Positions 20,669 to 36,986 of a DNA stretch of 64,000 nucleotides are shown here, in pieces. A model generated the notes under the pieces. That model saw only the letters and a program-made list of their open reading frames with translations. It was not told the DNA's origin and searched no databases. Position 1 is the first letter of the stretch, and each line of letters begins with the position of its first letter. Origin of the DNA: Kibdelosporangium persicum (GTDB taxonomy: Bacteria > Actinomycetota > Actinomycetes > Mycobacteriales > Pseudonocardiaceae); assembly GCF_013280595.1 (NCBI RefSeq), contig NZ_JAAATY010000021.1, positions 62,001 to 126,000 on the forward strand, read 5' to 3'. Made by a program: the position numbers and the translations under genes.

Positions 20669-22433
20669 ACTGCTGGCCGACGGCGCGGAGGGCACTGAGC
20701 TGGCCAAGCTCGCCGCCTCCCGCGCCGCCGGTCTGCCGCCGGACGAGGCCGCGGAGTGGCAGGCCGCGACCGAGGCGGCGCTGCGTGTCCGGCGCACCCT
20801 CGCCGAGCACCAGCGCCGCGAGACGGAGCTGTCCGCGCTCGTCGACACGGCCAACGACCTGGCGCGGCTTCGTGATCCGGACGCCGTGCTGCAACAGATC
20901 GTGCACCGGGTGCGGATGCTGCTCGGGGTCGACGTGTCGTACCTGAGCCTGAACGACACGGCAGGCGGGCAGACGTTCATGCGGGTCACCGAGGGGTCGG
21001 TGTCCGCGCTGTTCCAGCAGCTCTCGCTGGGCATCGGCGAGGGGCTCGGCGGGCTGGTCGCCCAGACCGGCCTGCCGTACGCGACGCCGGACTACCTCGC
21101 CGACACCCGGTTCAAGCACACGCGTGCGATCGACACGGCAGTCCGCGACGAAGGCCTGGTCTCGATCGTCGGCGTGCCGCTCACGTTGGGCCGCAGGGTG
21201 ATCGGCGTGCTGTACGCGGCCGACCGGGCGTTGCGGACGTTCGCGCCGGAAGAGGTCGCCCTGTTGTCCTCGCTGGCCGACCACGCGGCCATCTCGATCG
21301 ACAACGCGCACCTGCTGGCGGAAACCCGGCGGGCCAACTCGTCGATCCGGCGGGCCGAGGAGGTCCACGACCAGCTCACCGCTCTGGTCCTGCGTGGCGC
21401 GGACTTCCACTCGGTGGCCGCGGCGGTCGCCCAGGTGCTCGGCGGCGGGATCGTCCTGCACGACGCCGCCGGGGTCGAGCTCGCGTGCCTGGGCGAATCC
21501 GTTGCCCCACCGGCACAAGCGATCGCCCGCGCCCAGGCGGGCGGACGCGCCGTGGCCCAGGGCGACATCTGGGTGTGTGCCGTGCTGGCCGGGCCGGAAC
21601 TGCTCGGCAGCCTGGTGCTCACCGGCAGGCCCACGCTGACCGACGAGGACCGGCTGCTGTTCGAACGCGCGGGTCAGGTCGCGGCGCTGTTGTTGCTGCT
21701 CCGCCGATCCGTCGCGCAAGCCGAGGAGCAGGTGCGCGGTGAGCTGCTCACGGACCTGCTCACCGCGCCCGACCGCAATCCCGGCGCGTTGATCGCGCGG
21801 GGACGGCGGTTCGGCGTGAATCTCGCCGCGCCGCACAGTGTGCTGATCGCGCACGCGGACGGCGTGTCCCGTGGCCGGCTCGCGGCGGCGGCGACGGGTC
21901 ACGCGGCCCTGGTCGGTGTGCACGCCGAGCAGGTCGTCCTGCTGACGGCCGACGGCGATCCCGACAAGGTGGCGAAAGCGCTGACCACGGCCGTCGGCTG
22001 CCCGGTGACCATCGGCGCGGCCGGGCCGGCCACCGGGCCCGTCGAACTGGCCGCCGCGTACGCCGAAGCGGGCCGTTGCCTGCGTGCGCTGCGTGCGCTC
22101 GGGCAGGACGGCACCGGAGCTTCCCTGTCCGGCTTGGGTTTTGTCGGTGTGCTGCTCGGCGATCGAGCTGACGTCGCCGGTTTCGCACACCGCACGCTGG
22201 GGCCCGTGCTCGACTACGACGCACGTCGCGGCACCGAGCTGGTCCGGACGCTGCGGACGTACTTCTCGTGCGGCGCAAGCCTGACCGCGACCAAGGACGT
22301 GCTGCACGTGCACGTCAACACGGTGGTGCAACGACTCGACCGGATCGCGTCGCTGCTCGGGCCGGACTGGAACGCGCCCGACCGTGCACTGGAGATCCAG
22401 CTCGCCCTGCGGGTGTTGACGATCAGCTCGTGA
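20634..22433 (+). CDS. PucR-type regulator with GAF domain
   Basis: This 599-residue transcriptional regulator has a GAF domain at about residues 70-225, where DPDAVLQQIVHRVRMLLGVD and IVGVPLTLGRRVIGVLYAADR are visible. A middle PucR-like region follows, then a C-terminal HTH_30: LRTYFSCGASLTATKDVLHV and HVNTVVQRLDRI. Such regulators sense small metabolites and often control the adjacent catabolic genes, here the dehydrogenase and transporter upstream. The start overlaps the transporter by 35 nt; a GTG at 20643 is also possible. Confidence 0.87.
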   Translation: MTSVRAYRELLELLADGAEGTELAKLAASRAAGLPPDEAAEWQAATEAALRVRRTLAEHQRRETELSALVDTANDLARLRDPDAVLQQIVHRVRMLLGVDVSYLSLNDTAGGQTFMRVTEGSVSALFQQLSLGIGEGLGGLVAQTGLPYATPDYLADTRFKHTRAIDTAVRDEGLVSIVGVPLTLGRRVIGVLYAADRALRTFAPEEVALLSSLADHAAISIDNAHLLAETRRANSSIRRAEEVHDQLTALVLRGADFHSVAAAVAQVLGGGIVLHDAAGVELACLGESVAPPAQAIARAQAGGRAVAQGDIWVCAVLAGPELLGSLVLTGRPTLTDEDRLLFERAGQVAALLLLLRRSVAQAEEQVRGELLTDLLTAPDRNPGALIARGRRFGVNLAAPHSVLIAHADGVSRGRLAAAATGHAALVGVHAEQVVLLTADGDPDKVAKALTTAVGCPVTIGAAGPATGPVELAAAYAEAGRCLRALRALGQDGTGASLSGLGFVGVLLGDRADVAGFAHRTLGPVLDYDARRGTELVRTLRTYFSCGASLTATKDVLHVHVNTVVQRLDRIASLLGPDWNAPDRALEIQLALRVLTISS

Positions 22434-22800
22434 AGGTGTACTCGGTGCTCATCGTGCCCAGTTCCATCAGGTAACTGCCGTGTCCCTTGGCATCCTGGAG
22501 ATCGCCGGTTCCCGTGCCGGGCACGATCTCGAAGGTCCCGGTGACCTTCTCCGCGTCGAACGTGTTGGTGGTCCGCAGGATCACCGTGCCCGCCCTGCCG
22601 TCGATCGTGCCCGTGAAGAACTCGGCGCCGGTCGCCGTGCCGGTCCCGTCGGCGGTGTACGTCAGCAGACCGGCGGATTTGCCTTCGCCGTCAAGGATTC
22701 CGCTGTACCGGAAGGTCATCTTCGCGTCGCCGATCCTGGCACCGTCCTCGGCGCCCGCGTACACGCTCTCGTCCCACGCGGTGCATTCGAAAGTGTTCAT
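22423..22800 (-). CDS. DUF3224 protein
   Basis: This 125-residue protein starts MNTFECTAWDESVYAG and matches the DUF3224 type: a small beta-barrel (allene oxide cyclase-like) fold with FTGTIDGRAGTVILRT and the glycine-rich loop GTGTGDLQDAKGHGSY. The ATG at 22800 is chosen because the upstream extension has no family similarity. The 3' end overlaps the convergent PucR gene by 11 nt. No substrate is known for the family. Confidence 0.82.
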   Translation of the reverse strand: MNTFECTAWDESVYAGAEDGARIGDAKMTFRYSGILDGEGKSAGLLTYTADGTGTATGAEFFTGTIDGRAGTVILRTTNTFDAEKVTGTFEIVPGTGTGDLQDAKGHGSYLMELGTMSTEYTFTS

Positions 22801-22925
22801 GTCCCGAGCATGCCCGCCGTACCTGACACTTCCTGTCAGGAATTTCGGTGTTTTTCCTCCGGGACAGCAGGCCTGATCAGGTGACATGTCTGGCGGGTCG
22901 TGCGGCGAGCGGTCAGCCTGAAGGG

Positions 22926-23633
22926 ATGCGGGAGGTACTGGACGAGCTGGGAGTCTCACCCGAGGCGCTCGTCCCACGACATCGAGAGGAGCTTGACGAG
23001 CTAGGGTTCTGCCGGCTCGACGGGTTCATCGACGCGGACACGGCCGGACAGATGATCGGGCAGATCACCCGGCTGCTGGCGGGCACCCGCCAGGGCGGCA
23101 CGCTGCACCTCAAAGGCCTGCTCGACCAGGGCAGCCTGTTCGACGCGCTGTGGCTGCGGCCGGAACTGCTGGCCGCGGTCACGCACCTGCTCGGCCCGGA
23201 CTTCCAGATCAGACAGATGCACTACCGGGCGGGAAAACCCGGGCACGGCGGCCAAGCACTGCACATGGACGCGACCGAACGGGCCGGTCCGGGGCAATGG
23301 CGCGCCTGCAACGCGATCGTCGCGCTGACCGGCTTCACGCCGACGAACGGCGCCACCCGCGTGGTTCCCCGGTCCCATCTGGACCATCACTTCCGGCCAC
23401 CGGGCGGGCATCGTCCGCATCCGGACGAGATGCTGCTGACCGGGCCCGTGGGCACCTGTTGGCTGTTCAACAGTCATCTGTGGCATTCGGGCACCCGCAA
23501 CGACTCCACCGAACCACGGCACGCTGTGCTGACCGCGTTCCACCGTCGCAACAGCGGACCGACGCTGGGTTCGGCCTTGCCGTCGCACGAAACCGTGCTC
23601 AGGCTCGGCAATGCGGCGTATCTGCTGCTATAG
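22926..23633 (+). CDS. Phytanoyl-CoA dioxygenase-family protein
   Basis: The 235-residue protein is a probable Fe(II)/2-oxoglutarate oxygenase. The HxD pair is in ALHMDATE, the distal histidine in NSHLWHSGTRN, and the 2OG-binding arginine in EPRHAVLTAFHRR. PhyH members hydroxylate lipids, secondary metabolites or compatible solutes; the substrate is not predictable here. The ATG at 22926 has a modest AAGGG before it. The 3' end overlaps the convergent monooxygenase-like gene by 6 nt. Confidence 0.85.
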   Translation: MREVLDELGVSPEALVPRHREELDELGFCRLDGFIDADTAGQMIGQITRLLAGTRQGGTLHLKGLLDQGSLFDALWLRPELLAAVTHLLGPDFQIRQMHYRAGKPGHGGQALHMDATERAGPGQWRACNAIVALTGFTPTNGATRVVPRSHLDHHFRPPGGHRPHPDEMLLTGPVGTCWLFNSHLWHSGTRNDSTEPRHAVLTAFHRRNSGPTLGSALPSHETVLRLGNAAYLLL

Positions 23634-23933
23634 GTCGACGGCAACGTCGTGGTGCTCGACGACTTCGTCCCAGTGCCTCAAGGCTCGCCGCGCCTCGTCC
23701 GCGAGTACGGCCTGTTCGTAGTTCTCGCCGGCGAAGCCGCGGACCGCGTCGAGGTCGTCGAAGAACGTCAACGACGTGAACTTGATTTCGTCGCCGTCCG
23801 GCTGCCGAAGCAGCCGTGCGCCACGGAACCCCGCCACCCCACGAAGGTGGTCCGCGACTTCGGCCGCATAGTGCCGCTGGTAGTCGTCGGCTGTCGCCCG
23901 CGGCGCCCAGCCCCGCCATATCCGTGTGATCAT
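23628..23933 (-). CDS. Antibiotic biosynthesis monooxygenase-like (ABM fold) protein
   Basis: The 101-residue protein looks like a dimeric alpha/beta-barrel (ABM/EthD-like): ITRIWRGWAPRATADDYQRHY at the N terminus, GFRGARLLRQPDGDEIKFTSLTFFDDLDAVRGF in the middle, and a C-terminal strand HDVAVDL. Many members are haem degraders, quinol oxygenases or stress proteins. No specific role can be assigned. It diverges from the acetyltransferase gene by only 17 bp, so the two promoters must overlap. Confidence 0.78.
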   Translation of the reverse strand: MITRIWRGWAPRATADDYQRHYAAEVADHLRGVAGFRGARLLRQPDGDEIKFTSLTFFDDLDAVRGFAGENYEQAVLADEARRALRHWDEVVEHHDVAVDL

Positions 23934-23950
23934 CCGGGCATCATGGCAGA

Positions 23951-24514
23951 GTGAGTGATCAGAAAGAGCGGATGCTGCGGGGCGAGCTCTACCAGGACAA
24001 CGATCCGGTCCTGGTGGCGGAACGCAGGCGCTGCCAGGAGCTGCTGGACGGCTTCAACGCGACGAAGTCGGGCGACGACACGCTGCGCCAGGAGATCCTG
24101 GCGCAGCTGCTCGGCGAGATCGGCGAGCGCTCATGGATCATGCCACGGTTCCAGTGCGACTACGGCTACCTGATCCGCATGGGCAGCAACAGCTTCCTCA
24201 ACTACGACGCCATCCTGATGGACTGCGCGCCGATCACCATCGGCGACGACGTCTCCATCGGCCCGCGCGCACAACTGCTGACGGCGTTGCACCCGATGGA
24301 AGACCATGAGGCACGCCGCCAACGATGGGAGACCGCCGCACCTATCACCATTGGGGACAACGTGTGGATGGGCGGCGGCGTCATCGTCTGCCCGGGCGTC
24401 ACCATCGGCTCGAACACCGTCGTCGGCGCAGGCAGCGTGATCACCCGCGACTTGCCCGAGAAGGTCTTCGCCGCGGGCAACCCGTGCCGCGTGATCAAGT
24501 CACTCGGTGCGTAA
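23951..24514 (+). CDS. Maltose/galactoside O-acetyltransferase-type hexapeptide protein
   Basis: The 187-residue protein has the N-terminal Mac domain (ERMLRGELYQDNDPVLVAERRRCQELL) and a left-handed beta-helix: APITIGDDVSIGPRAQL, then HPMEDHEARR, and VWMGGGVIVCPGVTIGSNTVVGAGSVIT with hexapeptide spacing. It should acetylate a sugar hydroxyl from acetyl-CoA in the cytosol. The histidine in LTALHPMED is the expected catalytic base. GTG is the start. The natural acceptor is unknown. Confidence 0.92.
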   Translation: MSDQKERMLRGELYQDNDPVLVAERRRCQELLDGFNATKSGDDTLRQEILAQLLGEIGERSWIMPRFQCDYGYLIRMGSNSFLNYDAILMDCAPITIGDDVSIGPRAQLLTALHPMEDHEARRQRWETAAPITIGDNVWMGGGVIVCPGVTIGSNTVVGAGSVITRDLPEKVFAAGNPCRVIKSLGA

Positions 24515-24553
24515 CCTTCATTAGTGTTACGCGAGTTATTCGACCAATCGTAG

Positions 24554-25024
24554 GTGGTCAAGGTGGGCACGGACGACGTCCGGCTGGTGCTGGACTTCCT
24601 GAACACGGTCGACTACGAGGACCACGTCGATCACCTGGACACGGACGCCGAATGGCGGGCCTGGTTGGCCGAACGGCGACTGGCCGTCAGCGACCGTGCG
24701 CACGCGCGACACGTCCGTGACGCGATGCGCGCGGCCATGGGGGACCAAGGCGGCCAAGCCACCTTCTCGGTGCCCGTCGAAGTCACGCTGCAAGCCGGTA
24801 TACCGACGTTGACCGGCCAGAACGCCGTCAGCAACGTGCTCGCCGCGGCGACACGCCTGGCCCTTCAGGGCGACTGGGAACGGGTCAAGATCTGCCCGGC
24901 GCACGACTGCCGCTGGGCCTTCTACGACCAGTCCCGCAACCGTTCCCGGACCTGGTGCTCGATGCGGGTCTGCGGCAACCGCGAGAAGGCCAGGGCGTGG
25001 CGGGAACGCGCGCGTTCTACGTGA
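24554..25024 (+). CDS. CGNR zinc-finger (ABATE-type) regulator
   Basis: This 156-residue protein has an N-terminal ABATE-like helical region starting VRLVLDFLNTVDYED and a C-terminal CGNR zinc finger: ICPAHDCRWAFYDQSRNRSR, WCSMRVCGNREKARA. These proteins are thought to be stress-linked transcription regulators. GTG at 24554 or at 24563 are both possible starts. The 3' end overlaps the convergent DUF445 gene by 8 nt. The N-terminal ligand domain is shorter than in most relatives (often 180-200 residues). Confidence 0.87.
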   Translation: MVKVGTDDVRLVLDFLNTVDYEDHVDHLDTDAEWRAWLAERRLAVSDRAHARHVRDAMRAAMGDQGGQATFSVPVEVTLQAGIPTLTGQNAVSNVLAAATRLALQGDWERVKICPAHDCRWAFYDQSRNRSRTWCSMRVCGNREKARAWRERARST

Positions 25025-26282
25025 ACAGGTGCGCGATCGTGTGGATCGCCAGCCCGGCCAGCGCGCCGACCACGGTGCCGTTGATCCGGATGAACTGCAG
25101 GTCACGGCCGACTTGCAGCTCGATCTTGCGGGAGGTCTCCTGGGCGTCCCACCGGTCGATCGTGTCGGTGATCAACGTGGTGATCTCGTCGCGGTAGTTG
25201 AGCACGACGTACGCCGCCGCGTCCTGGACCCAGTTGTCGACCTTGCCGCGCAGCGCGTCCTCGCCGGTCAGCCGCTTGCCCAGCGAAATGAGGCCTTCCC
25301 GGACACGTTTGCGCAGCTCGGAGGAGGGGTCTTCGGCGGCGTCCAGCAGCAGGCGTTTGACGTTGGCCCACGCCGAGCCGATCACGTTCTGCACCTCGCG
25401 GTGTTCGAGGACCTGGTGCTTGACCCGTTCGGCCCGGTCCATCATCTCCGGGTCGTGCTGCATGTCCGCGGCGAAGCCGATCAGGAACCGGTCGATGGCC
25501 TGGCGCATCGGGTGGTTCGGGTCGGTCTTCAGTGCCCACGCGAACGTCATGACCTCGCCGTAGATCCGGTCGGCGACGATCGAGTCGACGAACTTCGGCG
25601 ACCACGAAGGCGCCCGTTCGGAGACCATGCTGACGAACTTGTCGTGGTTCTCCTTGACCCAGTCGTAGGACCGGTCGCACAGCAGGTCGACGAGCTGGCG
25701 ATGCGTGCCGTCGGCGAGAACGCGCTCCATCAGCTTGCCGAGCGGCGGCCCCCACGGCACGGACATGATCCGCTTGGTGACGGCCTGTTCGAACACGGCC
25801 TGCACGTCCTCGTCACGCAGCACGGTGACCATGCCGCGGACGACCGTGGCGAGCTCGGACGTGACCCGTTCGGCGTTCTCCTCGTGGCCGAGCCACTCGC
25901 CGAGCCGCTTGGTGACGTCCACCCTGGCCAGCCGCTCGCGGACGACCTGCTCGGACAGGAAGTTGACGCCGACGAACTCGCCGAGGCTGTCGCCCAGCAC
26001 GTTCTTGCGGGTGGGGATGATCGCGGTGTGCGGGATCCGGATGCCCAGCGGGTGGCGGAACAGCGCGGTGACGGCGAACCAGTCCGCCAGCGCGCCGACC
26101 ATGCCTGCCTCGGCGGCGGCCCGCACGTACCCGACCCATGCCGGTCCGCCGTTGGCCTCCCATGCCCAGGCGAAGCCGAAGATCACCGTCGCGCCGACGA
26201 GGAAGCCGAGCGCCACGAGCTTCATTTTGCGCAGCGCACGCTGCTTCTCCGCTGCCCCGGGGACGGCACCCAGTTGCTCCAC
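25017..26282 (-). CDS. DUF445 membrane-anchored protein
   Basis: The 421-residue protein matches DUF445: an N-terminal membrane helix near residues 22-40 (MKLVALGFLVGATVIFGFAW), AAEAGMVGALADWFAVTALFRHPLGIRIPHTAIIP near residue 56, a long helical region, and a second C-terminal hydrophobic segment, IRINGTVVGALAGLAIHTIAHLF. The family is found in many bacteria and is proposed to act at the envelope; its function is unproven. GTG is the start. It diverges from the aminotransferase by 29 bp. Confidence 0.9.
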   Translation of the reverse strand: MEQLGAVPGAAEKQRALRKMKLVALGFLVGATVIFGFAWAWEANGGPAWVGYVRAAAEAGMVGALADWFAVTALFRHPLGIRIPHTAIIPTRKNVLGDSLGEFVGVNFLSEQVVRERLARVDVTKRLGEWLGHEENAERVTSELATVVRGMVTVLRDEDVQAVFEQAVTKRIMSVPWGPPLGKLMERVLADGTHRQLVDLLCDRSYDWVKENHDKFVSMVSERAPSWSPKFVDSIVADRIYGEVMTFAWALKTDPNHPMRQAIDRFLIGFAADMQHDPEMMDRAERVKHQVLEHREVQNVIGSAWANVKRLLLDAAEDPSSELRKRVREGLISLGKRLTGEDALRGKVDNWVQDAAAYVVLNYRDEITTLITDTIDRWDAQETSRKIELQVGRDLQFIRINGTVVGALAGLAIHTIAHLFT

Positions 26283-26311
26283 GGGTCCATTGTCCGTGAG
26301 GATGACCCATC

Positions 26312-27496
26312 GTGCGTCGTGCAGCTCTGACTCCCCGGCTCCAGCCGTTCACGTCAACGATCTTCGCGGAGATGACCGCCCTGGCCACCAGGACCAACGC
26401 GGTCAACCTCGGCCAAGGCTTCCCGGACACCGACGGGCCCGCGTCGATGCTGGCCGAGGCCCAGAAGGCGATCGCCTCGGGGATCAACCAGTACCCGCCG
26501 GGCCCGGGCCGCCCGGAACTGCGGCAGGCGATCGCCGAGCACCGGACCCGCTACGGAACGCACTTCGATCCGGACACTGAGGTGCTCGTCACGGTCGGCG
26601 CGACCGAGGCCATCGCGTCCGCCCTGCTCGGTCTGGCAGGCCCGGGTGACGAGGTGCTGCTGATCGAGCCGTACTACGACTCGTACGCGGCGTGCGTGGC
26701 CCTGTCGGGCGCGACCCGTCGCGTGGTTCCGCTGGCCGAGGACCCCCAGACCGGCCGGTTCGCGCCGGACATCGAGGCGATCCGGGCGGCGATCACGCCG
26801 AACACGCGGCTGATCCTGATCAACACCCCGCACAACCCGACCGGCACGGTGTTCACCCGCGAGGAGCTGACCGCGATCGCGCAGCTGTGCGTCGAGCACG
26901 ACCTGATCGCGGTGACCGACGAGGTCTACGAAGACCTGATCTTCGACGGGCGCGCCCACGTGCCGCTGGGCTCGCTGCCGGGCATGGCCGAGCGGACGCT
27001 GACCATCTCCAGCGCGGGCAAGATGTTCAACTGCACGGGCTGGAAGATCGGCTGGATGTGCGGGCCCGCGGAACTGGTCGCGGCCGCGAAGGCGGCGAAG
27101 CAGTTCCTGACGTTCGTCGGCGGCGCCCCCTTCCAGCCCGCGGTCGCGCACGCGCTGCGGCACGAAGCCGCCTGGGTCTCGGACCTGCGTGCGCGGTTGC
27201 AGTCCAAGCGGGACCGTCTGGTGGCGGGTTTGTCGGAGGCGGGTTTTGAGGTCCGGCCCAGCGAAGGCACCTACTTCGTCTGCGCGGACGTCCGCCCGCT
27301 GGGCTTCACCGACGGGTTCCAGCTGTGCCGTGAGCTGCCCGAACGCATCGGCGTCGCGGCCGTGCCGGTGCAGGTCTTCACGGACACGCCGGAGAACTGG
27401 CAGCACGTGGTGCGGTTCGCGTTCTGCAAGAAGGACGAGGTGCTGGACGAGGCCGTGTCCCGGCTGCACAAACTCACCCCGAACCCCAGCAGCTGA
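26312..27496 (+). CDS. PLP-dependent aminotransferase (class I/II)
   Basis: This 394-residue fold-type I aminotransferase has PGPGRPELRQAIAEH near the N terminus, NTPHNPTGTVF, the Asp/Tyr pair in AVTDEVYEDLIFDG, and the PLP lysine in SSAGKMFNCTGWKIGW. It is closest to the DapC/kynurenine aminotransferase (YbdL-like) group; N-succinyldiaminopimelate aminotransferase activity is possible but unproven. GTG is the start. The 3' end overlaps the convergent CHAT gene by 23 nt. Confidence 0.9.
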   Translation: MRRAALTPRLQPFTSTIFAEMTALATRTNAVNLGQGFPDTDGPASMLAEAQKAIASGINQYPPGPGRPELRQAIAEHRTRYGTHFDPDTEVLVTVGATEAIASALLGLAGPGDEVLLIEPYYDSYAACVALSGATRRVVPLAEDPQTGRFAPDIEAIRAAITPNTRLILINTPHNPTGTVFTREELTAIAQLCVEHDLIAVTDEVYEDLIFDGRAHVPLGSLPGMAERTLTISSAGKMFNCTGWKIGWMCGPAELVAAAKAAKQFLTFVGGAPFQPAVAHALRHEAAWVSDLRARLQSKRDRLVAGLSEAGFEVRPSEGTYFVCADVRPLGFTDGFQLCRELPERIGVAAVPVQVFTDTPENWQHVVRFAFCKKDEVLDEAVSRLHKLTPNPSS

Positions 27497-29588
27497 ACCC
27501 GAGGTGACCGTGCCGGACCTGCGCGTCCGCCAAAGCCTTGGCGGGCGCGTGTCCGGCACGTAGGCGGTCGTGGAAGTCGGCCATGAGGTCGACAGCGGCC
27601 TCGTCAGGGACAGGCAGGATGCTGGCGATCATGGCCTGGCCGCCCCGGTCCAGCAGCACGTTGGCGAACACGTCGGCACGGGCGACCTCACACGCCGACA
27701 GGACGAGGATTCGCGGTGCCCGCTTGAGCCTCGCCAGGTCGTAGCCGTAGAGCGGGCCGTCGTCGAGTTGGAGGCACGAGAACATCGGCGCGTCCCGGCG
27801 GAACTTGCCATGAGCGGCGACGTGGACGAGATCGGCGCCGTCCATGACAGCGAGAACCGAGTCCACAGTGGACTCGATGACCCGGTGACCGAGGAGTCCG
27901 GCTTCCCGCTCGGCATGGTTCAGCCCGGGCCCAGCGACGGCGACCGCACCAGCCCCGGTCGTGGCTCGCGTGGCACGCAGCCACGCCGCCGTTGACGGCG
28001 CCAAGGAAACCGGTCGTCCGGCACAGGACGGCATCGCCGCCCAGACCACTTCGGACATCCCGGCGGCCGGGACGATGACCAACGGCCGGTCACCGGTCCG
28101 AAGTGGCCTGAGGAGTTGGTCATCCAGCTCGGTGGACAGGTGAGCGGCGACGGTCGGCCTGCCAAGGTGGTGCACCCGCACAACGCCATCGACGACAGTG
28201 CAGGCCACGACAGAGCCCTGGCACACCGCGAAGGTGACCAGCATCCGCTCGCCGAGCGCCTCGACCAGGTCGTCGATGTGGCCCGTACCGTAGGAGGCGC
28301 GGGTGTGGCGGCGCATCCTGTCTTCGAGTCGAGCCGCTCGGCCGACGTCCCCTTCCGCCTCAGCGGCCCGGAGTTCGACCAGATCCGCCGTATCGACCTG
28401 CGGCAGCACGATGATCCTCTGCCGCTCGATCCACTGGAACACCGTGCGAGCACGGCTCGTCTGGGCGATGGCCACCCCCGCCAGCTCGGCGGCGAGTTCA
28501 CCCGCGCCCGGTCCCATCGCCGCCGCGTACTCGGTGACGACTCGCATCCCGGCCTGGCATGCCGCGAACCTGGCCTGGCTGCTGGTCGCCAGCCTGGCCT
28601 CGGCCAGCCAGCCGATCGCCCGCAGTCGCGCGGTGGCGGCAAAGCGTTCCGAGCGCAGGCGGACCAGCAGCTCCGGCGCCACTTTCGCCGCATCGAGCAG
28701 AAGTTCGGCCGCTTCGGTCCGTTTCCCCCACCGCAGACATCGATCCGCGACTCTCTTCGCCGCCGACACGTCAACCAGGTTGGTACGCAACGCCAACGCG
28801 TCGGCCGCGGCGATCCACGCCGGTCTTCGCTGCGCCCGGAAGAGTTCCTGGGCACGCTTGGCCTCCCCGGCGGCGTGGTCGATGTCCCCGGCCCTGAGCG
28901 CGCAGTACCCCGCGGCCAGCACGGCTTCCGCCAGTCGGCTCTCCCGGCCCGCCAGCAGTGGTTCCGCCTGCTCCAGCAGGGCACTGGCGTCCCGGGTCAT
29001 TCCCGCGGCCAGCAACGCGGAAGCATGGTCGATCAACGCTTCCGCCCGCCCCGCACGCAGTCCGCCGCTCGCCCGCTCGAACAACTCAAGCGCCTTCGGC
29101 AAGTCACCCGCCTGCAACGCGACAAAACCGCGATTGTGGATGCAGACTGCCACCCGTTCGTGCTCCCCCAACCGGGTCAGAATGCTCGCTGCCGCAGCGA
29201 AATCGCGGTCCGCCGCCGCCAACCTGAACAGGTAGGCACGGGAAATTCCTCGACCGGTCAGCGCATTGGCCAACCACTTCGGGTCACCGCCCAGCTCGCG
29301 CATCGCGGCCGACAGTTCCGTCACCGCCTGCTCGTAGGCCCCGATCGCGCACATCCGCAGGCCGTCCAGGCACCGGATTCGTGCAGGTGGGGCGCCGGAT
29401 TCCCGTGCCTTGCGCAGTTCACGGGCGCAAGCTCGCGGATTCCCCCGCTCCAACTCGATCCACGCGATGGTCAACCAGATCTGGCCGACATCCGCCGCAG
29501 CCGCGGTATCCAGCGCTTGGCGTGCTTGTTCCAACGCCCTGGCGAATTCGCCTCGCTCGACCGATGCGATCGCTTCGGCGTGGCTCAT
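27474..29588 (-). CDS. TPR-CHAT domain protein (caspase-like protease candidate)
   Basis: The 704-residue protein joins an N-terminal helical repeat region (residues about 1-330, TPR-like units such as GEFARALEQARQALDTAAAA and AGDLPKALELFERASGG) to a C-terminal CHAT domain (about 440-700). CHAT is a clan CD cysteine protease fold related to caspase and separase. The expected catalytic histidine (LVHVAAHGKF, His593) and cysteine (LVLSACEVA, Cys633) are both present, so activity is plausible. No signal peptide or membrane segment is seen. Its ATG overlaps the stop of the upstream sigma gene by 4 nt, so the two are translationally coupled. The substrate is unknown; the subtilase and the sigma factor are natural candidates. 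Confidence 0.9.
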   Translation of the reverse strand: MSHAEAIASVERGEFARALEQARQALDTAAAADVGQIWLTIAWIELERGNPRACARELRKARESGAPPARIRCLDGLRMCAIGAYEQAVTELSAAMRELGGDPKWLANALTGRGISRAYLFRLAAADRDFAAAASILTRLGEHERVAVCIHNRGFVALQAGDLPKALELFERASGGLRAGRAEALIDHASALLAAGMTRDASALLEQAEPLLAGRESRLAEAVLAAGYCALRAGDIDHAAGEAKRAQELFRAQRRPAWIAAADALALRTNLVDVSAAKRVADRCLRWGKRTEAAELLLDAAKVAPELLVRLRSERFAATARLRAIGWLAEARLATSSQARFAACQAGMRVVTEYAAAMGPGAGELAAELAGVAIAQTSRARTVFQWIERQRIIVLPQVDTADLVELRAAEAEGDVGRAARLEDRMRRHTRASYGTGHIDDLVEALGERMLVTFAVCQGSVVACTVVDGVVRVHHLGRPTVAAHLSTELDDQLLRPLRTGDRPLVIVPAAGMSEVVWAAMPSCAGRPVSLAPSTAAWLRATRATTGAGAVAVAGPGLNHAEREAGLLGHRVIESTVDSVLAVMDGADLVHVAAHGKFRRDAPMFSCLQLDDGPLYGYDLARLKRAPRILVLSACEVARADVFANVLLDRGGQAMIASILPVPDEAAVDLMADFHDRLRAGHAPAKALADAQVRHGHLGFSCWGSG

Positions 29589-30394
29589 CGGACGAACCAG
29601 TCCGTGACCACGCCGTCAACGGCCAGCCGCACCGGCCCTTGCGGCACGTCCGCCCTGAACAGGCCGTGGTCGTCGACGTCCACTCGGACCATGCCCTCCG
29701 GCCACCACACCTGGACGTCAGCGCGCGGCAGCACCGTTCCGGTGAGCATCGCGCCGACCTCCACCTGCACGGTCTGTTCCCGATACCCGAACTTCAGCGC
29801 TGCCTCGGCACTCCTGGTCGCCTGTGGCAGGGTGACGAACCGCGGCCCAGGCTGCCGCGGTACTGCGATCACGGCCGGTGCCGGATCGATCTGGTCGAAG
29901 AGGCTCCGGTCCAGCTTGCCCCGCAATGCCCGCAGGCACCGTCCTTTCGCCTGGCCGACGCTGCCTGCCCGCAGGCCGATGGCATCGGCAAGTTCGGAAT
30001 AGCCGAATTCCGGCGCATACACAAAAAGCCGCAACAACCGCTGACACCGATCAGGCAAAGCCCGAAAAGCGGCCCAGAGCTGCCGATCCCGCTCATCCCG
30101 AAGAACCAGGTGCTCAACCCCGTCCTGCGCGACCTCAGGCCGCCACCGAACAGGCAAAGGCCGCCGAACCGACAGAACCCGAAGGCATTCCCGTTTGGCC
30201 ACGGTGGCCAACCAAGCGGAAACCCGCTCGCCATCCCGAATGTCGGCCAGGTGTTCGGCGAGATTCAACCAGGTCGTCTGAAAAACATCCTCGGCATCAG
30301 CCTCGGCCAGCCGAAAACCCCGGACAACGGCCCAAACCCGAGGCCCATGCACGGCAACCAACTCCCGCCACCCCAGCTCATCAAGCGCATCCAT
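29585..30394 (-). CDS. ECF-like sigma-70 factor with C-terminal beta-rich extension
   Basis: The 269-residue protein has sigma region 2 (VVRGFRLAEADAEDVFQTTWLNLAEHL, residues about 22-60, and WLATVAKRECLRVL) and region 4 (LPDRCQRLLRLF, YSELADAIGLRAGSVGQAKGRCLRALR, about 125-165). Beyond region 4 it carries about 95 extra residues that are rich in beta strands (TGTVLPRADVQVWWPEGMVRV and DHGLFRADVPQGPVRLAVDG). Such a tail is unusual for ECF factors and may replace an anti-sigma partner, as no anti-sigma gene lies beside it. GAGGGGGC before the ATG is a good ribosome-binding site. It is coupled to the CHAT gene. Confidence 0.85.
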   Translation of the reverse strand: MDALDELGWRELVAVHGPRVWAVVRGFRLAEADAEDVFQTTWLNLAEHLADIRDGERVSAWLATVAKRECLRVLSVRRPLPVRWRPEVAQDGVEHLVLRDERDRQLWAAFRALPDRCQRLLRLFVYAPEFGYSELADAIGLRAGSVGQAKGRCLRALRGKLDRSLFDQIDPAPAVIAVPRQPGPRFVTLPQATRSAEAALKFGYREQTVQVEVGAMLTGTVLPRADVQVWWPEGMVRVDVDDHGLFRADVPQGPVRLAVDGVVTDWFVR

Positions 30395-30723
30395 GCCCCC
30401 TCAGACGACCAACCCCACCCCCAGGCTCCAAACCCCCCAAATCCCACCCACCCGAGTGACCCCAGCAGCCCACACCAAGAACCAGCAAAGCAACCGAAAA
30501 CCGAAAGCCAGACAACCCACAAAGACGAAGAGATAAGCCAAGAAACCCGAAAGGAAGAGAATCGAAGCAAAGACAGAAGGGAGAGAACCCAAGAAGACAA
30601 GGAAGGAAGGAAGGAGCGAAAGCCCAAGGCAAAGAGCAGCAAGAAAAGCCAGAGGCCACAGGCAGTCGGCCAGAAAAAAAGAGGACACAGCGCAAAGAAC
30701 CCAAAGGAATCAGTAGTGAGGCC

Positions 30724-30790
30724 GCGAAGCACCCGAAGCCAAGCGAGGGAGCGAAGCACCCGAACCCAAAGTAAGGGTGCGAAGCACCCG
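30724..30790. repeat. Three direct repeats of GCGAAGCACCCG
   Basis: GCGAAGCACCCG occurs at 30724-30735, 30751-30762 and 30779-30790, a period of 27-28 bp, with partly conserved spacers (AAGCCAAGCGAGGGA, AACCCAAAGTAAGGGT). A shorter relative, GCGCGAAGCGCC, follows. The spacing recalls CRISPR, but the units are too short and degenerate and there are no cas genes. Confidence 0.7.
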
Positions 30791-30818
30791 CCAAGGCGCG
30801 AAGCGCCAACGTGGGGGG

Positions 30819-30841
30819 TTTGGGGGGCTCGGCCCCCCAAA
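30819..30841 (-). terminator. G/C-rich hairpin, probable subtilase terminator
   Basis: TTTGGGGGG (30819-30827) and CCCCCCAAA (30833-30841) form a perfect 9-bp stem with a 5-nt loop. It lies about 190 bp past the subtilase stop in its direction of transcription, and upstream of the sigma/CHAT genes. It would separate the two transcription units. Confidence 0.55.
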
Positions 30842-31029
30842 ATAATCGTCCAAGCCGAGGGAAGCGAGCAAAGCGAGCGACTAAGGCTCGGAGCGTAGGA
30901 CGTCCCCGCTCGACCCGGCTGGGGGTCCCGGGGAGCGGGGACGTTTGGCTCGCCGAGGGGGAGGGGGCGAGCATCCATAGAGTAGCGCGTCGACGACTGT
31001 GCGTGCCAGTGGTCACCGCCAAATCGCGT

Positions 31030-32226
31030 TCACAATGTTGGGTGATCGAGTGAATGCCTGTCGAGCGCTTCCGCCGGGGGGTGGCCGTTGTGCAGGAGTT
31101 TCGCCAGGTCGGCGGCCACGTTGGGGGCCGCGAAGGAGGTGCCGCTCCAGCGTGCGAAGCCGTATTCCCTGGCTTCGGTGCCTGGGGCGACGCCGGGCGT
31201 GTCGGGTTTGAGCCGGACGTGGCTGGAGATGATGTCCACGCCGGGCGCGGTGGCGTCGACCCAGGGTCCGCGGTTGGAGAATGCCGCGATTGTGCCGGTT
31301 TGGTCGGACGCGGCGACGGCTGTCACCGTGTCCAGTGCGGCGGGCCAGAACGGGCGGCTGCTTCCGCCGTTGCCCGCCGCGACGACCACGATCGTGTCGG
31401 TGATCTGTGCGAATTCGTGTTCCAGGATCGGCGGGCATTGGTTGTCCGCCGTGTAGCAGCCTGACGTGAGCAGGATGATGTCGATGTGGCCGCGGGCCTG
31501 GACGGCACGCAGAGCGGCGGCGACTGTCGTGTCGTCGGTGATGCCCATGGAGGACAGGACTCGGTGGTGCCTGATCGTGACGCCGGGTGCTTTGCTGATC
31601 AGGACGCCCGCCACGAATGTGCCGTGGCCGGCCTGCCAGTCGGGTGTTCCGTCGATGTCGTGGTCGAGGATTTCGGGTTGCAGGCCCCATTCGGTGAGCC
31701 AGGGCCGTCCCGCGAACCAGGGGTGCGGGTCGAGGCCGGTGTCCAGGACCGCGACCGTGACGGGTGGGTCCCAGGTTTCCGGCGCGGGTGGCCTTGGTGC
31801 CGGGACGTCGATTTCCGGTCCGCCGATCCAGGTCGGGGTGCCGAGCATGATCGGCCCGCCGATGTGGACGTGATTGGGTGCGGCCCGCCATTTGCCGGTG
31901 ACGTCCGCGGCGACTTCGACGGGACGGCCGCGCAGTTCGTCACGCAACACTATGCGTCCACTTGGGTCAATCCGGTCGACCCACCGGCGCAGTTGTTCGG
32001 AGACCGGTTGGACCGCCGCCGGTTCGACGACCAACTGTCCAGCTCGGACAAGAGATTCCCCCGGCCCGTCTGGATCGTGCAAGACGAGGTCCGGTATCCG
32101 CCGGTGCCATCGGCTCACCCATTCGCTGAGTCGCATCGTGTGTTGAGTGTCCACGAAGGACACATTGACCGGGTGTCCCGGCACTCGCCCAGTCGCACTA
32201 GAAGGATCACCCAGTTCGGTGAACAC
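31030..32226 (-). CDS. S8 family serine peptidase (subtilase) without signal peptide
   Basis: The 398-residue protein has a complete subtilisin catalytic set: Asp162 (VAVLDTGLD), His201 (GHGTFVAG), the oxyanion Asn286 (VVAAGNGG) and Ser364 (SGTSFAAP). About 150 residues precede the catalytic core. No signal peptide, membrane helix or sorting signal is visible, so it is predicted to be cytosolic, unlike most actinomycete subtilases and mycosins. The N-terminal part may act as an inhibitory or recognition domain. GTG at 32226 is used; an ATG at 32136 would remove 30 residues. It is on the same strand as the sigma/CHAT pair, and a functional link is inferred from position only. Confidence 0.88.
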   Translation of the reverse strand: MFTELGDPSSATGRVPGHPVNVSFVDTQHTMRLSEWVSRWHRRIPDLVLHDPDGPGESLVRAGQLVVEPAAVQPVSEQLRRWVDRIDPSGRIVLRDELRGRPVEVAADVTGKWRAAPNHVHIGGPIMLGTPTWIGGPEIDVPAPRPPAPETWDPPVTVAVLDTGLDPHPWFAGRPWLTEWGLQPEILDHDIDGTPDWQAGHGTFVAGVLISKAPGVTIRHHRVLSSMGITDDTTVAAALRAVQARGHIDIILLTSGCYTADNQCPPILEHEFAQITDTIVVVAAGNGGSSRPFWPAALDTVTAVAASDQTGTIAAFSNRGPWVDATAPGVDIISSHVRLKPDTPGVAPGTEAREYGFARWSGTSFAAPNVAADLAKLLHNGHPPAEALDRHSLDHPTL

Positions 32227-32431
32227 GACGGACTATGATCGTCGCCGAATGGACACACCGGGGCCGGACAACGAGATCCGCCTTTCCGGGCGGCGCTTGC
32301 GCAGCTAGGGTGCAATCGGCGATGCGAGTGCGACGAGGCGCGGATGTCGTCGCGATGTGTCCAAGGCTGGTTGGGTGGAAACGGTGGTGGTCCTGGTGAC
32401 CGGCTCGGGTCAGGCGCGTGGCGCCTGCGCG

Positions 32432-33385
32432 ATGCTGCGTCGCCTCGTCATGCGCCTGCTCCTGCTGACCGGCTTCACCGCGGCGGGCTGGCTGGCCAGT
32501 GTCCTGCTCATGAGCGGCACCGCGTCGGCCGATCTGATCAAGCTGCCGGAGCTCCCCGGGATCACGTCCGCCCCACAGCAGTCGGCCCAGCAGCAGTCGG
32601 CGCCACAGCAGTCGGCACAGCAATCGACGCGGCAGCCCGCAAAACCGGCCAAGAAGGTCAGTTCCGGGCAGGGCGGCGGTCTGGTCGGCGGCTTGCTCGG
32701 TGGCGTTGTCAGCACGGTCAACACCACCGTCTCCACGGTGACCACCACGGTCACCAACACCGTCAACACGGTCACGAAAACGGTGACCAGCACAGTCAGC
32801 GGCGTCAAGAAGACCGTGACCACGGTCGTCGACCGGGTCACCGACAGCCCGCAGTCCACTCCTGGTGACGACGGTGACAACTCGCTGTTGCCTGAGCCCG
32901 TGGTGGATTTGCTGACGCCGGATCCGAAGTCCGACACCGACACGACCACGGACTCGAACACGGCTCGCGGCACTGTCGAGACCACCGCCGCCGAGGTTCC
33001 CGCGCCGGTGGTGGCCGCCACCGAGCCGCCGGCGCCCGCGGTGACCGAGGCTCCGGTGACCGAGCGCCCGCGCGTCCAGCACCACGAGGTCCGCCGAACG
33101 CAAGCGACCGCCCATCCGGTCCGGGTGGGCTCGATCCAGGAAAAGGTGGCGCCCGCCGACAAGAGCCCCGGCCCGATGCCGGGTCCGTCGGCGCCGGTCG
33201 CTCCGGCCGCCCCCGCGCCGACGGCTTCGGCCGGTGGCAACGGCGGTTCGGACGCGCGTGGCCTGCTCGCCGTCCTGACCCCGCACAGCGCTCTGGCTCC
33301 GCCGCAGGCGGGCCTGGTGCCGCGGGAGCACACCCGTACCGAAACCGGGCGGTGCGCGGGTCTGCCCGCGACCGCGCCGGACTGA
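32432..33385 (+). CDS. Secreted Thr/Val/Pro-rich low-complexity protein
   Basis: This protein of about 317 residues is not recognised. It starts MLRRLVMRLLLLTGFTAAG, with a clear signal peptide ending near ASA. It then has Gln/Ser repeats (APQQSAQQQSAPQQSAQQ), a Val/Thr heptad-like tract of about 50 residues (STVNTTVSTVTTTVTNTVNT and on), and Pro/Ala-rich disordered sequence. It looks like an envelope or secreted structural protein. An in-frame GTG at 32357 could extend the start, but the signal peptide argues for 32432. It diverges from the subtilase gene. Confidence 0.7.
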   Translation: MLRRLVMRLLLLTGFTAAGWLASVLLMSGTASADLIKLPELPGITSAPQQSAQQQSAPQQSAQQSTRQPAKPAKKVSSGQGGGLVGGLLGGVVSTVNTTVSTVTTTVTNTVNTVTKTVTSTVSGVKKTVTTVVDRVTDSPQSTPGDDGDNSLLPEPVVDLLTPDPKSDTDTTTDSNTARGTVETTAAEVPAPVVAATEPPAPAVTEAPVTERPRVQHHEVRRTQATAHPVRVGSIQEKVAPADKSPGPMPGPSAPVAPAAPAPTASAGGNGGSDARGLLAVLTPHSALAPPQAGLVPREHTRTETGRCAGLPATAPD

Positions 33386-33525
33386 TTTCCCTTTTTCGCG
33401 GCATATCCCTGCCCTGAGTGCGTCTCACCTAGGGCTGAACTCTGTCCCGGGGCTGTACCCGGTGCTCCATGCACCTCCCAGAGCCACCCGACCTGCCGAC
33501 CGCGCCCGGTCAGGTCGGGGCCTGG

Positions 33526-33560
33526 GCCCCGGCGCCGCGATGCCCCCGCGGCGCCGGGGC
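33526..33560. terminator. Very stable GC hairpin
   Basis: GCCCCGGCGCCGCG (33526-33539) and CGCGGCGCCGGGGC (33547-33560) are perfectly complementary over 14 bp with a 7-nt loop. It lies 140 bp past the stop of the secreted protein gene on the plus strand and could end that transcript. Confidence 0.5.
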
Positions 33561-33669
33561 TCCCTCACTGGCCGCGACGCCTGGCCGGCACAACGAGGGG
33601 CTGTGCCGACCACTCGCGGACGAGCGGCCGGAGTGTCCGACCGGGTGTGATGGAACCCGAGAAGACACG

Positions 33670-33730
33670 AGTGCGCCGGATGGATCCGCGAGGACCAACA
33701 GGTCGAAGCGGTTACGCCATCCGGCGCACT
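33670..33730 (-). terminator. Long-loop hairpin at the end of the HTH/Clp-N operon
   Basis: AGTGCGCCGGATGG (33670-33683) and CCATCCGGCGCACT (33717-33730) form a perfect 14-bp stem with a 33-nt loop. It begins about 50 bp past the last stop of the leftward HTH/Clp-N operon. GCTTTTT follows on the plus strand, so it may also terminate rightward transcription. Confidence 0.55.
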
Positions 33731-33779
33731 GCTTTTTACAGCGTCCGAGGGTACGTTGACTACCCCTAATCGGATGGAC

Positions 33780-33872
33780 CTATCTGAGCCACATCCTGAG
33801 CAGCAGAAACCTGGGGTCGGGCAGACGCCGGACGCGCGGTGGCGGCTTCGGCTCCGCCCGCTTGGCCGTCAT
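33780..33872 (-). CDS. Putative 30-residue peptide coupled to the Clp-N gene
   Basis: An ATG at 33872 overlaps the stop of the Clp-N gene as ATGA and opens a 30-codon frame ending in TAG at 33780. The product is strongly basic with a hydrophobic end (MTAKRAEPKPPP, then PDPRFLLLRMWLR). The exact coupling is the only support, as short frames arise by chance. No family is recognised. Confidence 0.3.
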   Translation of the reverse strand: MTAKRAEPKPPPRVRRLPDPRFLLLRMWLR

Positions 33873-34411
33873 GACGCCTTCGCGAGCTGGTCGCTGACGC
33901 CTTGATACGTGACGCCCTTGGCTTGGAGGGCCTCCGAGGCCAGCGTCCTGCCGGTCAGCAACGCGAGCAGCAGGTGCTCCGCGCCGATCTCCCGCTGGTT
34001 GCGGTTCAGTGCTTCCTGTAGGCACTGCGCCAGGGTTCGTTTCGCCTCGGAGCTGAACGGGATGTGCCCTTTCAGGAAGCGCCGTTTGCGGACCGGCATG
34101 GCCAGCGCCTGTTCCCCGAGCGTCTGTTCGACGCCTCGGATCACGCTGTCGGCATCGACCCCGAACGAGCTCAGCGCGGCCAGGTCGGCCTCGGTCATCC
34201 CGCCCCGGCGCCTGGCCTTGGCGAACTCCTCGGCCAGGCCGTCGGCGGACAGCTCGTACCCGGCCAGCAGGTGGGCGATCATGTCGTCGCGCGTGCGCAG
34301 CAATGCGACGAGCAGATCCGGGCTGTCGATCTCGCCCGCCCCGGCGTCGCGGGCTACCTGCTGCGCGGTCACGACCACGTTCCGGGCCGCGCCGGAGAAC
34401 CGCTCGAACAT
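33869..34411 (-). CDS. Clp N-terminal domain protein without ATPase
   Basis: The 180-residue protein starts MFERFSGAARNVVVTAQQVARD and consists mainly of a double Clp-N repeat: DSPDLLVALLRTRDD in the first half and IGAEHLLLALLTG in the second. These modules bind substrates or adaptors in ClpA/ClpC, but no AAA domain follows, so it is a free-standing adaptor-like protein. ATG codons at 34414 and 34411 are adjacent, following GGGAGGGG; the second overlaps the HTH stop as TGATG. It is paired with a small HTH protein, a recurrent arrangement in actinomycetes with no settled role. Confidence 0.85.
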   Translation of the reverse strand: MFERFSGAARNVVVTAQQVARDAGAGEIDSPDLLVALLRTRDDMIAHLLAGYELSADGLAEEFAKARRRGGMTEADLAALSSFGVDADSVIRGVEQTLGEQALAMPVRKRRFLKGHIPFSSEAKRTLAQCLQEALNRNQREIGAEHLLLALLTGRTLASEALQAKGVTYQGVSDQLAKAS

Positions 34412-34620
34412 CATCCCCTCCCATGTTTCTTGTGCACCGCTTGCCGGCTGACGCCGAGCTCGTTCGCGATGTCCTGCCATGACCACCCGTTCGCCCGCGC
34501 GTTGCGGACCTGCACCGCTTCGAGCCACTCGAGCAGCTTGCGCAACGCCGCGACCGCACGCAGCCCCACCTTGGGGTCTTTGTCGCCGGCGGCGGTCGCC
34601 AGCTTGGTCGCCTCACTCAT
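34411..34620 (-). CDS. Small HTH DNA-binding protein
   Basis: This 69-residue protein starts MSEATKLATAAG and ends with a helix-turn-helix, WSWQDIANELGVSRQAVHKK, then HGRG. The ATG at 34620 is chosen because an upstream in-frame codon at 34668 would lie inside the operator/promoter region. The transcript appears to begin at the ATG (leaderless). It probably autoregulates the operon through the two palindromes immediately upstream. Confidence 0.8.
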   Translation of the reverse strand: MSEATKLATAAGDKDPKVGLRAVAALRKLLEWLEAVQVRNARANGWSWQDIANELGVSRQAVHKKHGRG

Positions 34621-34622
34621 GG

Positions 34623-34640
34623 TGTCAATGTAGGTTGACA
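34623..34640. promoter_or_regulatory. Operator palindrome 1, overlapping the -10
   Basis: TGTCAATGTAGGTTGACA has half-sites TGTCAA and TTGACA separated by six bases. It ends two bases before the HTH start codon and covers the proposed -10 element, so a bound protein would block transcription. Confidence 0.7.
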
Positions 34641-34655
34641 CGGCTGCGCTGTCAA
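34627..34655 (-). promoter_or_regulatory. Leaderless sigma-70-type promoter of the HTH/Clp-N operon
   Basis: Read leftward, a consensus -35 TTGACA (34655-34650) is followed by exactly 17 bp and then TACATT (34632-34627). The first base of the ATG at 34620 lies seven bases after the -10, so transcription is predicted to start at or next to the start codon. There is no ribosome-binding site, which fits a leaderless mRNA. Confidence 0.7.
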
Positions 34656-34667
34656 CCAAAGTTGACA
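34650..34667. promoter_or_regulatory. Operator palindrome 2, overlapping the -35
   Basis: TGTCAACCAAAGTTGACA shares the TGTCAA-N6-TTGACA form with palindrome 1 and lies 27 bp from it, start to start (about 2.5 helical turns). It includes the -35 of the leftward promoter. Confidence 0.7.
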
Positions 34668-34762
34668 CAGCAGGTCAGGACACAGTTGCCGAGTTCTGTT
34701 TGTGACCTAGGAACCACGGATATCGCGCGGTACGGGGTGTGAATGCCCAATAGGCTGACTTT

Positions 34763-35665
34763 GTGGGAAGTCTGCTATGGCTAGCGCTCGTCCTGGCGAT
34801 CGCCGGGGCAGTGCTGAACGGCCTGGGGGCGTTGTGGCAGAACACCGCCGTCCGTGGCAAACAGAGCGGCAAGCTGGTCAGCCTCGCCGCGTTGCTGCAC
34901 CTGCTCCGCAATCGCCGCTGGTTGATGGGCCAGCTGGCAGTGGTCATCGGCAGCGCGCTGCACTTCGGTGCGCTCGCGTTCGCCCCGGTCACCGTGATCC
35001 AGCCGATCGGTGTCCTGGGCATCGCCGTGACCACTGTCGCAAGCGCCCGGCGTGACCGATCCGGCCTGTCTGTCGGCACCTGGCTGTCACTGATGGCGAT
35101 CGTGCTCGGCGTCGGCGGCTTCACGTCGCTGGCCGCGTCGAACGCCCAGGTCACCCGGGTCTCCGACGAGACGGCCGTGCTGATCGCGATGATCGTCGGC
35201 CTGCTGCTGATGGTGCTCGGCCTGATCGGCAGCATCGGCCACGGCCTGGTCCGCTGCCTCGCGTTCGCCGCGGGCGGCGGCGTCGTGTTCGGGTTCGCCT
35301 CCGTGGTGATCCGGCTCGCCGCACTCAGCCTGGAGCACGGCAACCCCGCGGACTTCCCGACCGGATCGCTGATCGGCGCGATCCTCTCGATCCCGGTCGC
35401 GGTGTGGTTCATCCAGCAGGCCCACGCCAGCGGCCCGCCCGACCTCGTGGTCGCCGCGCTCACCCTGGCCGACCCGATCGTCGCGATCGGCATCGGCTAC
35501 GTGGTACTCGGCGAAGGCGCCAAGACTCCGACGATCGCGACCCTGGCCGAGATCGTGTGCTTCCTGATCGCCGCGGTCGGCATCCTGATGCTGCCCAAGA
35601 CCCGCAGGAAACCGGCCGCCGGAGCCAAGGCGAACCTGCGTACCGCGCAGTACTCGGAGAGCTGA
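34763..35665 (+). CDS. DMT-superfamily (EamA/NIPA-like) membrane transporter
   Basis: This 300-residue protein has about nine to ten predicted transmembrane helices and drug/metabolite-transporter-type repeats (LVLAIAGAVLNGLGALWQ in the first half; ALTLADPIVAIGIGYVVLGEG in the second). It ends in a basic tail, RRKPAAGAKANLR. The substrate cannot be assigned; related proteins move metabolites or Mg2+. GTG is the start with little leader before it. It diverges from the HTH/Clp-N operon across 142 bp. Confidence 0.82.
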   Translation: MGSLLWLALVLAIAGAVLNGLGALWQNTAVRGKQSGKLVSLAALLHLLRNRRWLMGQLAVVIGSALHFGALAFAPVTVIQPIGVLGIAVTTVASARRDRSGLSVGTWLSLMAIVLGVGGFTSLAASNAQVTRVSDETAVLIAMIVGLLLMVLGLIGSIGHGLVRCLAFAAGGGVVFGFASVVIRLAALSLEHGNPADFPTGSLIGAILSIPVAVWFIQQAHASGPPDLVVAALTLADPIVAIGIGYVVLGEGAKTPTIATLAEIVCFLIAAVGILMLPKTRRKPAAGAKANLRTAQYSES

Positions 35666-36301
35666 CCGCCTGCCGAGGCCCAGGGCAGGGCGGCGCGGGA
35701 CTCAGACCGAGGGCACGCTTGTCCAGGGCCCTCCTGAGCCCGAACCCGGCCCAGCTTCGTCAAGCGCCACCCACCATGCGGCCGCAAAGCCGACGCCACC
35801 CCATATAGGCGCCCCCAAATAAGGTCATACCCCCAGAAGACATCCCCCCGCCCATCCCGGGGGCCGGCCCCGCTTCCATTCTACTCGGGATAAGGCCTGG
35901 TCAAAGGGTTACCGGTCGGTTGTGGACAACCAGATTTGCGAACGGACCGTTGGTACGGGCGACAACCAGGACAGGTGCCAGGACCGCTTCCGGGGCCCTG
36001 GCGGAGGGCGAACCGCAGACGGCACCAGAACAGGACGCCAGGAGCAGGTGCTCCCAACCTCGCGGCGCGGAAGACCGACCGCAGGCAGCAACGAGGACGC
36101 CAGGAGCAGAGGGCTTTCGGAGCCGTGACGGAATGGTGGACCTCGGGCGGCAACCAGGACAGGACGCCAGGAAGGAGACTCCAGCCTCACGGCTCCGGAC
36201 GCTGCCTCGGGCGGTGGACTAGACCAATGAATGTCAACGGGTAATACCCGGCCCCCGGCGCCGATACCCGAGTGGACAGCACGCCGCGAGAAAGGCCGCC
36301 G
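35666..36301. other. Gene-free stretch before the polysaccharide locus
   Basis: No convincing gene occurs in these 636 bp. The region has a short GGGGCCGGCCCC palindrome (35860-35871) and a set of degenerate direct repeats at 35961-36175 (listed separately). It leads into the first gene of the exopolysaccharide locus and should contain its promoter. Confidence 0.5.
35961..36175. repeat. Four degenerate direct repeats with 60-67 bp period
   Basis: A unit resembling CAACCAGGACAGGACGCCAGGA recurs four times. The GCCAGGA core is at 35977, 36037, 36099 and 36166, with spacings of 60, 62 and 67 bp. The fourth copy is the most complete, and the copies share a following AG-rich stretch. The intervals do not code for anything recognisable. 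Confidence 0.65.
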
Positions 36302-36979: not shown

Positions 36980-36986
36980 GGTTGGC

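Follow-up and report, generated by a model that had tools for sequence, protein, structure and literature searches.

The genes for a TPR-CHAT protease, an ECF sigma factor, a small beta-sandwich protein and a subtilase (S8 peptidase) probably constitute one real and conserved system, which is present in the window (the whole 64,000-nucleotide stretch of Kibdelosporangium persicum DNA that was analyzed) with the sigma factor and the beta-sandwich protein fused. The four parts are conserved together, and the catalytic sites of both proteases are retained. A quite possible, if not yet probable, interpretation is that these proteins form a conserved four-part cytosolic switch, in which the beta protein would restrain the sigma factor, a cut by the CHAT protease would free it, and the subtilase would serve as a second protease. 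In the window, these genes lie at:

27474..29588, minus strand: TPR-CHAT protease gene, 704 aa (Pfam CHAT 1.1e-22, TPR_12 2.3e-8)
29585..30394, minus strand: ECF sigma factor fused to a beta-sandwich domain, 269 aa (Sigma70_r2 2.7e-11, NCBIfam sigma70-ECF 1.1e-17)
31030..32226, minus strand: subtilase (S8), cytosolic by hydropathy, 398 aa (Peptidase_S8 6.9e-24); start uncertain

A preliminary description of this DNA had recognized a TPR-CHAT protein, an ECF sigma factor and a signal-less subtilase at these positions, with intact catalytic residues, and Pfam, NCBIfam and alignment bear it out. The coupling of the sigma and CHAT genes that it had reported is likewise evident from the ORF coordinates, the sigma stop and the CHAT start overlapping in ATGA.

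The sigma factor and its beta-sandwich partner

The identification as an ECF sigma factor is based on the sigma70-ECF match, on two helical domains (sigma2 and sigma4, without sigma3) and on ECF sigma factors as the best structure matches; hydropathy analysis of the protein reveals no hydrophobic segment. The fused polypeptide divides as follows:

29891..30379, minus strand: sigma2 (residues 6-78) and sigma4 (residues 94-168), helices in the AlphaFold model, with matches to ECF sigma structures
29804..29890, minus strand: linker, residues 169-197, mostly of low confidence
29588..29803, minus strand: beta-sandwich domain (residues 198-269), with TDWFVR as its last residues; encoded separately in relatives outside the genus

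The beta-rich domain had originally been described as an extra C-terminal domain of the sigma factor. It is that in the window, but the description was incomplete: the domain is normally the product of a gene of its own, placed between the sigma and CHAT genes or beside the sigma gene, and the module has four parts, of which the beta protein is the fourth. (What this means operationally is that a profile of the C-terminal tail of sigma, run on the loci of the window's family that are described below, retrieves beta as a separate ORF directly after sigma in 30 of the 32 family loci outside the genus, the other two also being without sigma.) The unfused beta ORFs mostly encode 113-160 aa (one encodes 187). 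Among the 30 family loci with unfused beta that were examined, 26 have a beta start codon that shares 4 bases with the sigma stop. Sigma and beta are fused in seven of eight same-genus genomes and separate in the eighth (L046); they are always separate ORFs in the 33 loci of the class set that have both. Where sigma is present, beta is found on the same strand and no more than 900 nt after it, in 38/38 family loci (7 of them fused) and 33/33 class loci.

Beta has a helix-like stretch at its N-terminus and a conserved TxW motif at its C-terminus; a DPxP motif and a predicted beta-sandwich are its other features. Pfam searches with ten beta proteins return no match to an anti-sigma family, and sub-threshold matches to CarboxypepD_reg in five of the ten (three of the ten queries being shifted by one codon); the best value is 2.5e-6, for an orphan sigma-beta pair (L079), and among module loci 4.8e-4 (L068), and the beta domain of the window itself is without any Pfam match. 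The orphan pair is one of two further sigma-beta pairs in the window's own genome (L079:5369-6723 on contig C15 and L080:5238-6724 on contig C53). A single-sequence search of the ~12 kb around each pair finds neither CHAT nor subtilase, suggesting that beta partners sigma irrespective of the proteases.

The fusion of sigma to beta in the window's genus argues for their physical association. The AlphaFold model of the fused protein is confident for the domains and not for the placement of beta on sigma (pTM 0.38), a negative of little weight, since the first beta strands are loosely placed in the alignment. In the segment that joins the two, pLDDT falls below 50 at residues 169-182 and 192-196, and the mean identity of this segment to the window residue, taken over seven fused proteins including that of the window, is 0.69, versus 0.75-0.81 for the other segments. 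Residues 169-197 are a putative site of cleavage of the fused protein.

Instead of restraining sigma, beta could be an adaptor or a positive cofactor that takes sigma to CHAT or to RNA polymerase, in which case proteolysis would turn sigma off by degradation. C-terminal extensions of ECF sigma factors can be essential for activity (this is the case of ECF42, in the account of PMC8999054), and the TxW motif, with Trp among the last 6 residues of 64 of 72 beta ORFs, could serve as a docking or degradation tag. The CASP precedent, as presented in PMC10028731, favors inhibition, and a positive role of beta is, on balance, unlikely.

The TPR-CHAT protease and the subtilase

The AlphaFold model of the CHAT protein (pLDDT 88.9, pTM 0.83) has two regions, and the catalytic codons, at positions computed from the ORF, lie in the second:

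CHAT residues 1 to ~376: TPR solenoid, in the AlphaFold model
CHAT residues ~379-704: separase-like protease region, with His593 and Cys633
27690..27812, minus strand: catalytic codon span (His593 at 27810-27812, Cys633 at 27690-27692)

The predicted fold is separase/Csx29-like: the top Foldseek match of the model is Csx29 (8eey_B, E 3.2e-13), and separase is also matched, as is DdvA (E 8.1e-13), which is an anti-sigma factor according to the titles of PDB entries 8rw5 and 8rot. His593 and Cys633 are retained in the alignment of 79 of 80 loci (and in 31/31 in a second comparison); the exception, L066, has a gap at the dyad, and its CHAT match goes on in another frame. The Pfam match together with this dyad places the protein among CHAT proteases of the caspase/separase clan. 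No clear membrane segment is found by hydropathy, the highest 19-residue Kyte-Doolittle mean (1.72, at residue 449) falling in predicted beta strands of the protease region.

The S8 triad of the subtilase is kept over 68 loci (His201 in 68/68, Ser364 in 68/68 and Asp162 in 66/68, with two alignment gaps), as is Asn286 (68/68). Apparent motif exceptions that regular expressions had suggested, in 12 of 80 CHAT proteins and 16 of 68 subtilases, are reduced by alignment to 1/80 and 2/68, all of them gaps. As had been proposed, the subtilase is without signal peptide or membrane segment, judged by hydropathy alone (the highest 19-residue Kyte-Doolittle mean is 1.19 overall and 0.73 near the N-terminus). 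It was also considered as a type VII secretion mycosin and rejected, scoring 92.5 bits against an NCBIfam cut-off of 278.75 and having no hydrophobic segment.

Conservation and linkage

Two sets of loci were assembled around the CHAT protein. In the window's family, Pseudonocardiaceae, 297 genomes were searched, of which 204 matched at E<=1e-10 (not all of these matches being orthologues), and 40 loci were taken from 40 of the 204, picked by score and genus spread and not by their neighbors. In the class, 394 genomes were searched and 129 matched at E<=1e-30; the class set consists of 40 loci from 39 genomes and 21 families, none of which is the window's own, and some of its stretches are cut by contig ends.

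Of the 40 family loci, 38 have sigma, 38 have beta, 31 have the subtilase and 30 have all three; the corresponding counts for the 40 class loci are 33, 34, 37 and 31. Every part is kept in 8/8 same-genus genomes that were searched, and a further set of 26 loci from named genomes (10 of them shared with the family set) has all four genes in 20, with two of the six misses (L098 and L103) cut by contig ends; Saccharopolyspora spinosa (L087) and Saccharothrix algeriensis (L094) are among the species with all four. Gene order is variable. The subtilase may precede the other genes in the same orientation, follow them in convergent orientation, or be divergent from CHAT and itself be followed by sigma-beta; CHAT and the subtilase switch side and strand relative to sigma-beta. 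That the genes stay linked while their order changes is strong evidence that they share a function.

The preliminary description had allowed that the linkage might be coincidental. Chance can be set aside: 25 S8 matches are spread over the 10.35 Mb of the window's own genome, a density that, if typical, predicts ~0.035 subtilases per 14.5-kb stretch, as compared with the 31 of 40 family and 37 of 40 class CHAT loci that have one, and all partners occur together, in several gene orders, in 30/40 and 31/40 loci, respectively. The proposal had also been staked on conservation of the subtilase and on constraint at the catalytic residues; the loci examined bear out both, the subtilase being a conserved neighbor of the sigma/CHAT pair and the catalytic residues not being freely variable.

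Shared regulation or shared history might nevertheless have kept together genes of separate pathways, the subtilase in particular being a passenger. The subtilase is not found in the stretch fetched for 9 of the 40 family loci, the motif that precedes sigma (see below) is not enriched before it, and the correlation of its distances with those of beta is the weakest (Mantel rho 0.37). Linkage that outlives several rearrangements across 21 other families, at a chance expectation as low as that just given, makes such co-inheritance improbable.

The proteases might, on the other hand, be the output: sigma-beta would sense stress or infection and switch on CHAT (and the subtilase) as self-damaging or defense effectors, in the manner of bacterial programmed cell death. 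CHAT and caspase-like proteases are known effectors, the CHAT gene in many loci comes immediately after sigma-beta, and a PADLOC scan of three proteins of the locus yields a generic match of the subtilase (2.8e-15). The same scan gives CHAT itself a weak match (BovA, 5.6e-5). Moreover, CHAT is divergent from a subtilase-sigma-beta run in 9 of the 40 class loci, and the locus is kept in 8/8 same-genus genomes and in many families, whereas defense genes are usually patchy. An effector role is rather doubtful on this evidence.

Two loci of the family set (L074 and L076) contain TPR-CHAT homologues with neither sigma nor beta as neighbors, and the window's own genome has several further CHAT matches; CHAT alone is no marker of the module. 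Shortened subtilase ORFs (~307-339 codons, stop to stop) are seen in L051, L077, L078 and the Lentzea loci L095, L104 and L105; Asp, His and Ser are retained in the first three.

A promoter-like site upstream of sigma

One short element precedes the sigma gene:

30401..30429, minus strand: promoter-like site GGAGCC-N16-CGTCTGA, with its end 6 bases upstream of the sigma ATG

A transcript starting from this site would be leaderless or nearly so. Of 38 family loci, 16 have the pattern GGNNCS-N16-SNTCYRA ahead of sigma, versus 1.0 expected from shuffles, a comparison that has to be read with the pattern having been devised by eye on the same loci, several of which are close relatives. The spacer is 16 at every family site, though 14-18 was allowed. 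Before family subtilases the motif is not enriched (1 of 30, versus 0.97 expected). Class-wide (p<=0.05), it is found in 2/33 sigma, 2/37 subtilase and 1/40 CHAT upstreams, versus 2/33 in a coding control, and expectation maximization over 60 deduplicated sigma upstreams (of 71) yields no clear motif. The exact motif has a single occurrence in the genome, that of the sigma gene itself. When one mismatch is allowed there are 17 genome sites, versus 24 for the reversed control, and no further convincing ones, so that no regulon is claimed. Autoregulation of sigma in part of the window's family is plausible.

Relation to known systems

The locus had been put forward as a candidate undescribed system. 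That designation lacks support: CHAT, subtilase and "carboxypeptidase" neighbors have previously been published for the sigma group ECF54, for which proteolytic control, dispensing with an anti-sigma factor, has been proposed from their conservation (2022 review PMC8999054, which cites Casas-Pastor et al. 2021 and Huang et al. 2015 on ECF54). The neighborhood with CHAT and subtilase is also that of the window, whose sigma factor may be assigned to ECF54 on this basis, subject to the group model; the weak CarboxypepD_reg matches of some beta proteins may explain the "carboxypeptidase". The genomic association is, by neighborhood, already reported; what is found in the window's genus is its fused variant. 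The account in PMC8999054 does not discuss the beta protein or mention a sigma-beta fusion for ECF54, although the primary papers could do so. A literature search on ECF54 returned that review, the other titles being unrelated, and no paper came up in searches that combined the CHAT domain either with both sigma factor and subtilase or with both ECF and Streptomyces.

A published precedent for the mechanism is the type III-E CRISPR system, in which, as described in PMC10028731, Csx29 cuts Csx30, a protein that binds and inhibits an ECF sigma factor. Here also a TPR-CHAT protease with catalytic His/Cys, whose top structural match is Csx29, is encoded with an ECF sigma factor; the difference is that beta takes the place of Csx30 and that there is an additional subtilase. 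Membership of a type III-E CRISPR system was considered and discarded: Pfam RAMPs, a proxy for Cas7-11, has no match in the window's own genome, and no CRISPR-like repeat array is found at 22000-38000 of the window.

Other relatives are more distant. The CHAT protein differs from separase in being bacterial, 704 aa long and associated with a sigma factor rather than with cohesin. DdvA, matched by the CHAT model and sigma-regulating by title, is also by title transmembrane, unlike the CHAT protein here; its name is absent among the matches listed of the literature search. EACC2-caspase systems, in the account of PMC8195603, likewise encode a caspase-like protease, a TPR protein and an ECF sigma factor together, with other components (EACC2, DUF1822) and no mention of a subtilase.

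A proposed proteolytic switch

The switch that we tentatively favor would operate as follows. The ECF sigma factor would be held by its dedicated beta-sandwich partner, which is separate in most genomes and fused here. The TPR solenoid of CHAT would read a signal, and CHAT would then cut beta itself or, where sigma and beta are fused, the flexible linker that follows sigma4. The freed sigma would transcribe its own operon, generating more CHAT. The subtilase, as second protease of the same pathway, could be an activator, clean up the cut products or act as a co-effector. Somewhat more tentatively, the module can be thought of as a CRISPR-free chromosomal counterpart of Csx29/Csx30/CASP-sigma, possibly widespread in actinomycetes, to which a subtilisin-type protease would be added in a cascade; in the window's genus, inhibitor and sigma would be one polypeptide needing a cut in order to act.

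If this is right, sigma release by caspase/separase-related proteases would be a general bacterial switch, of which type III-E CRISPR would be one specialized user, and a function would be provided for a sigma group whose mechanism is, in PMC8999054, a proposal. The substrate hypothesis (beta protein or linker) would also be open to test in the tube, with the natural sigma-beta fusion as a convenient single-chain substrate.

Other features of the locus

The listed first codon of the subtilase (GTG, 32226) is GTA in six and GCA in one of seven same-genus relatives, implying that the true start is probably downstream, possibly at about 32136-32163. The adjoining DNA is also similar among relatives:

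32227..32356, minus strand: block preceding the subtilase ORF, with high similarity, as judged by eye, among same-genus loci

The similarity of this block runs past the listed start codon and is partial in other genera; the block is not the sigma promoter motif. Some 1.6 kb upstream of the subtilase, an ORF at 33869-34528 matches Clp_N (in two stretches) and no other Pfam family. Between the subtilase and sigma, at 30440-30990, lies a low-complexity spacer that contains 2.4 copies of a 28-base tandem unit. Parts of this spacer are found at 23 other places in the 10.35-Mb host genome with 80-95% identity, and the spacer accordingly looks like a dispersed repeat.
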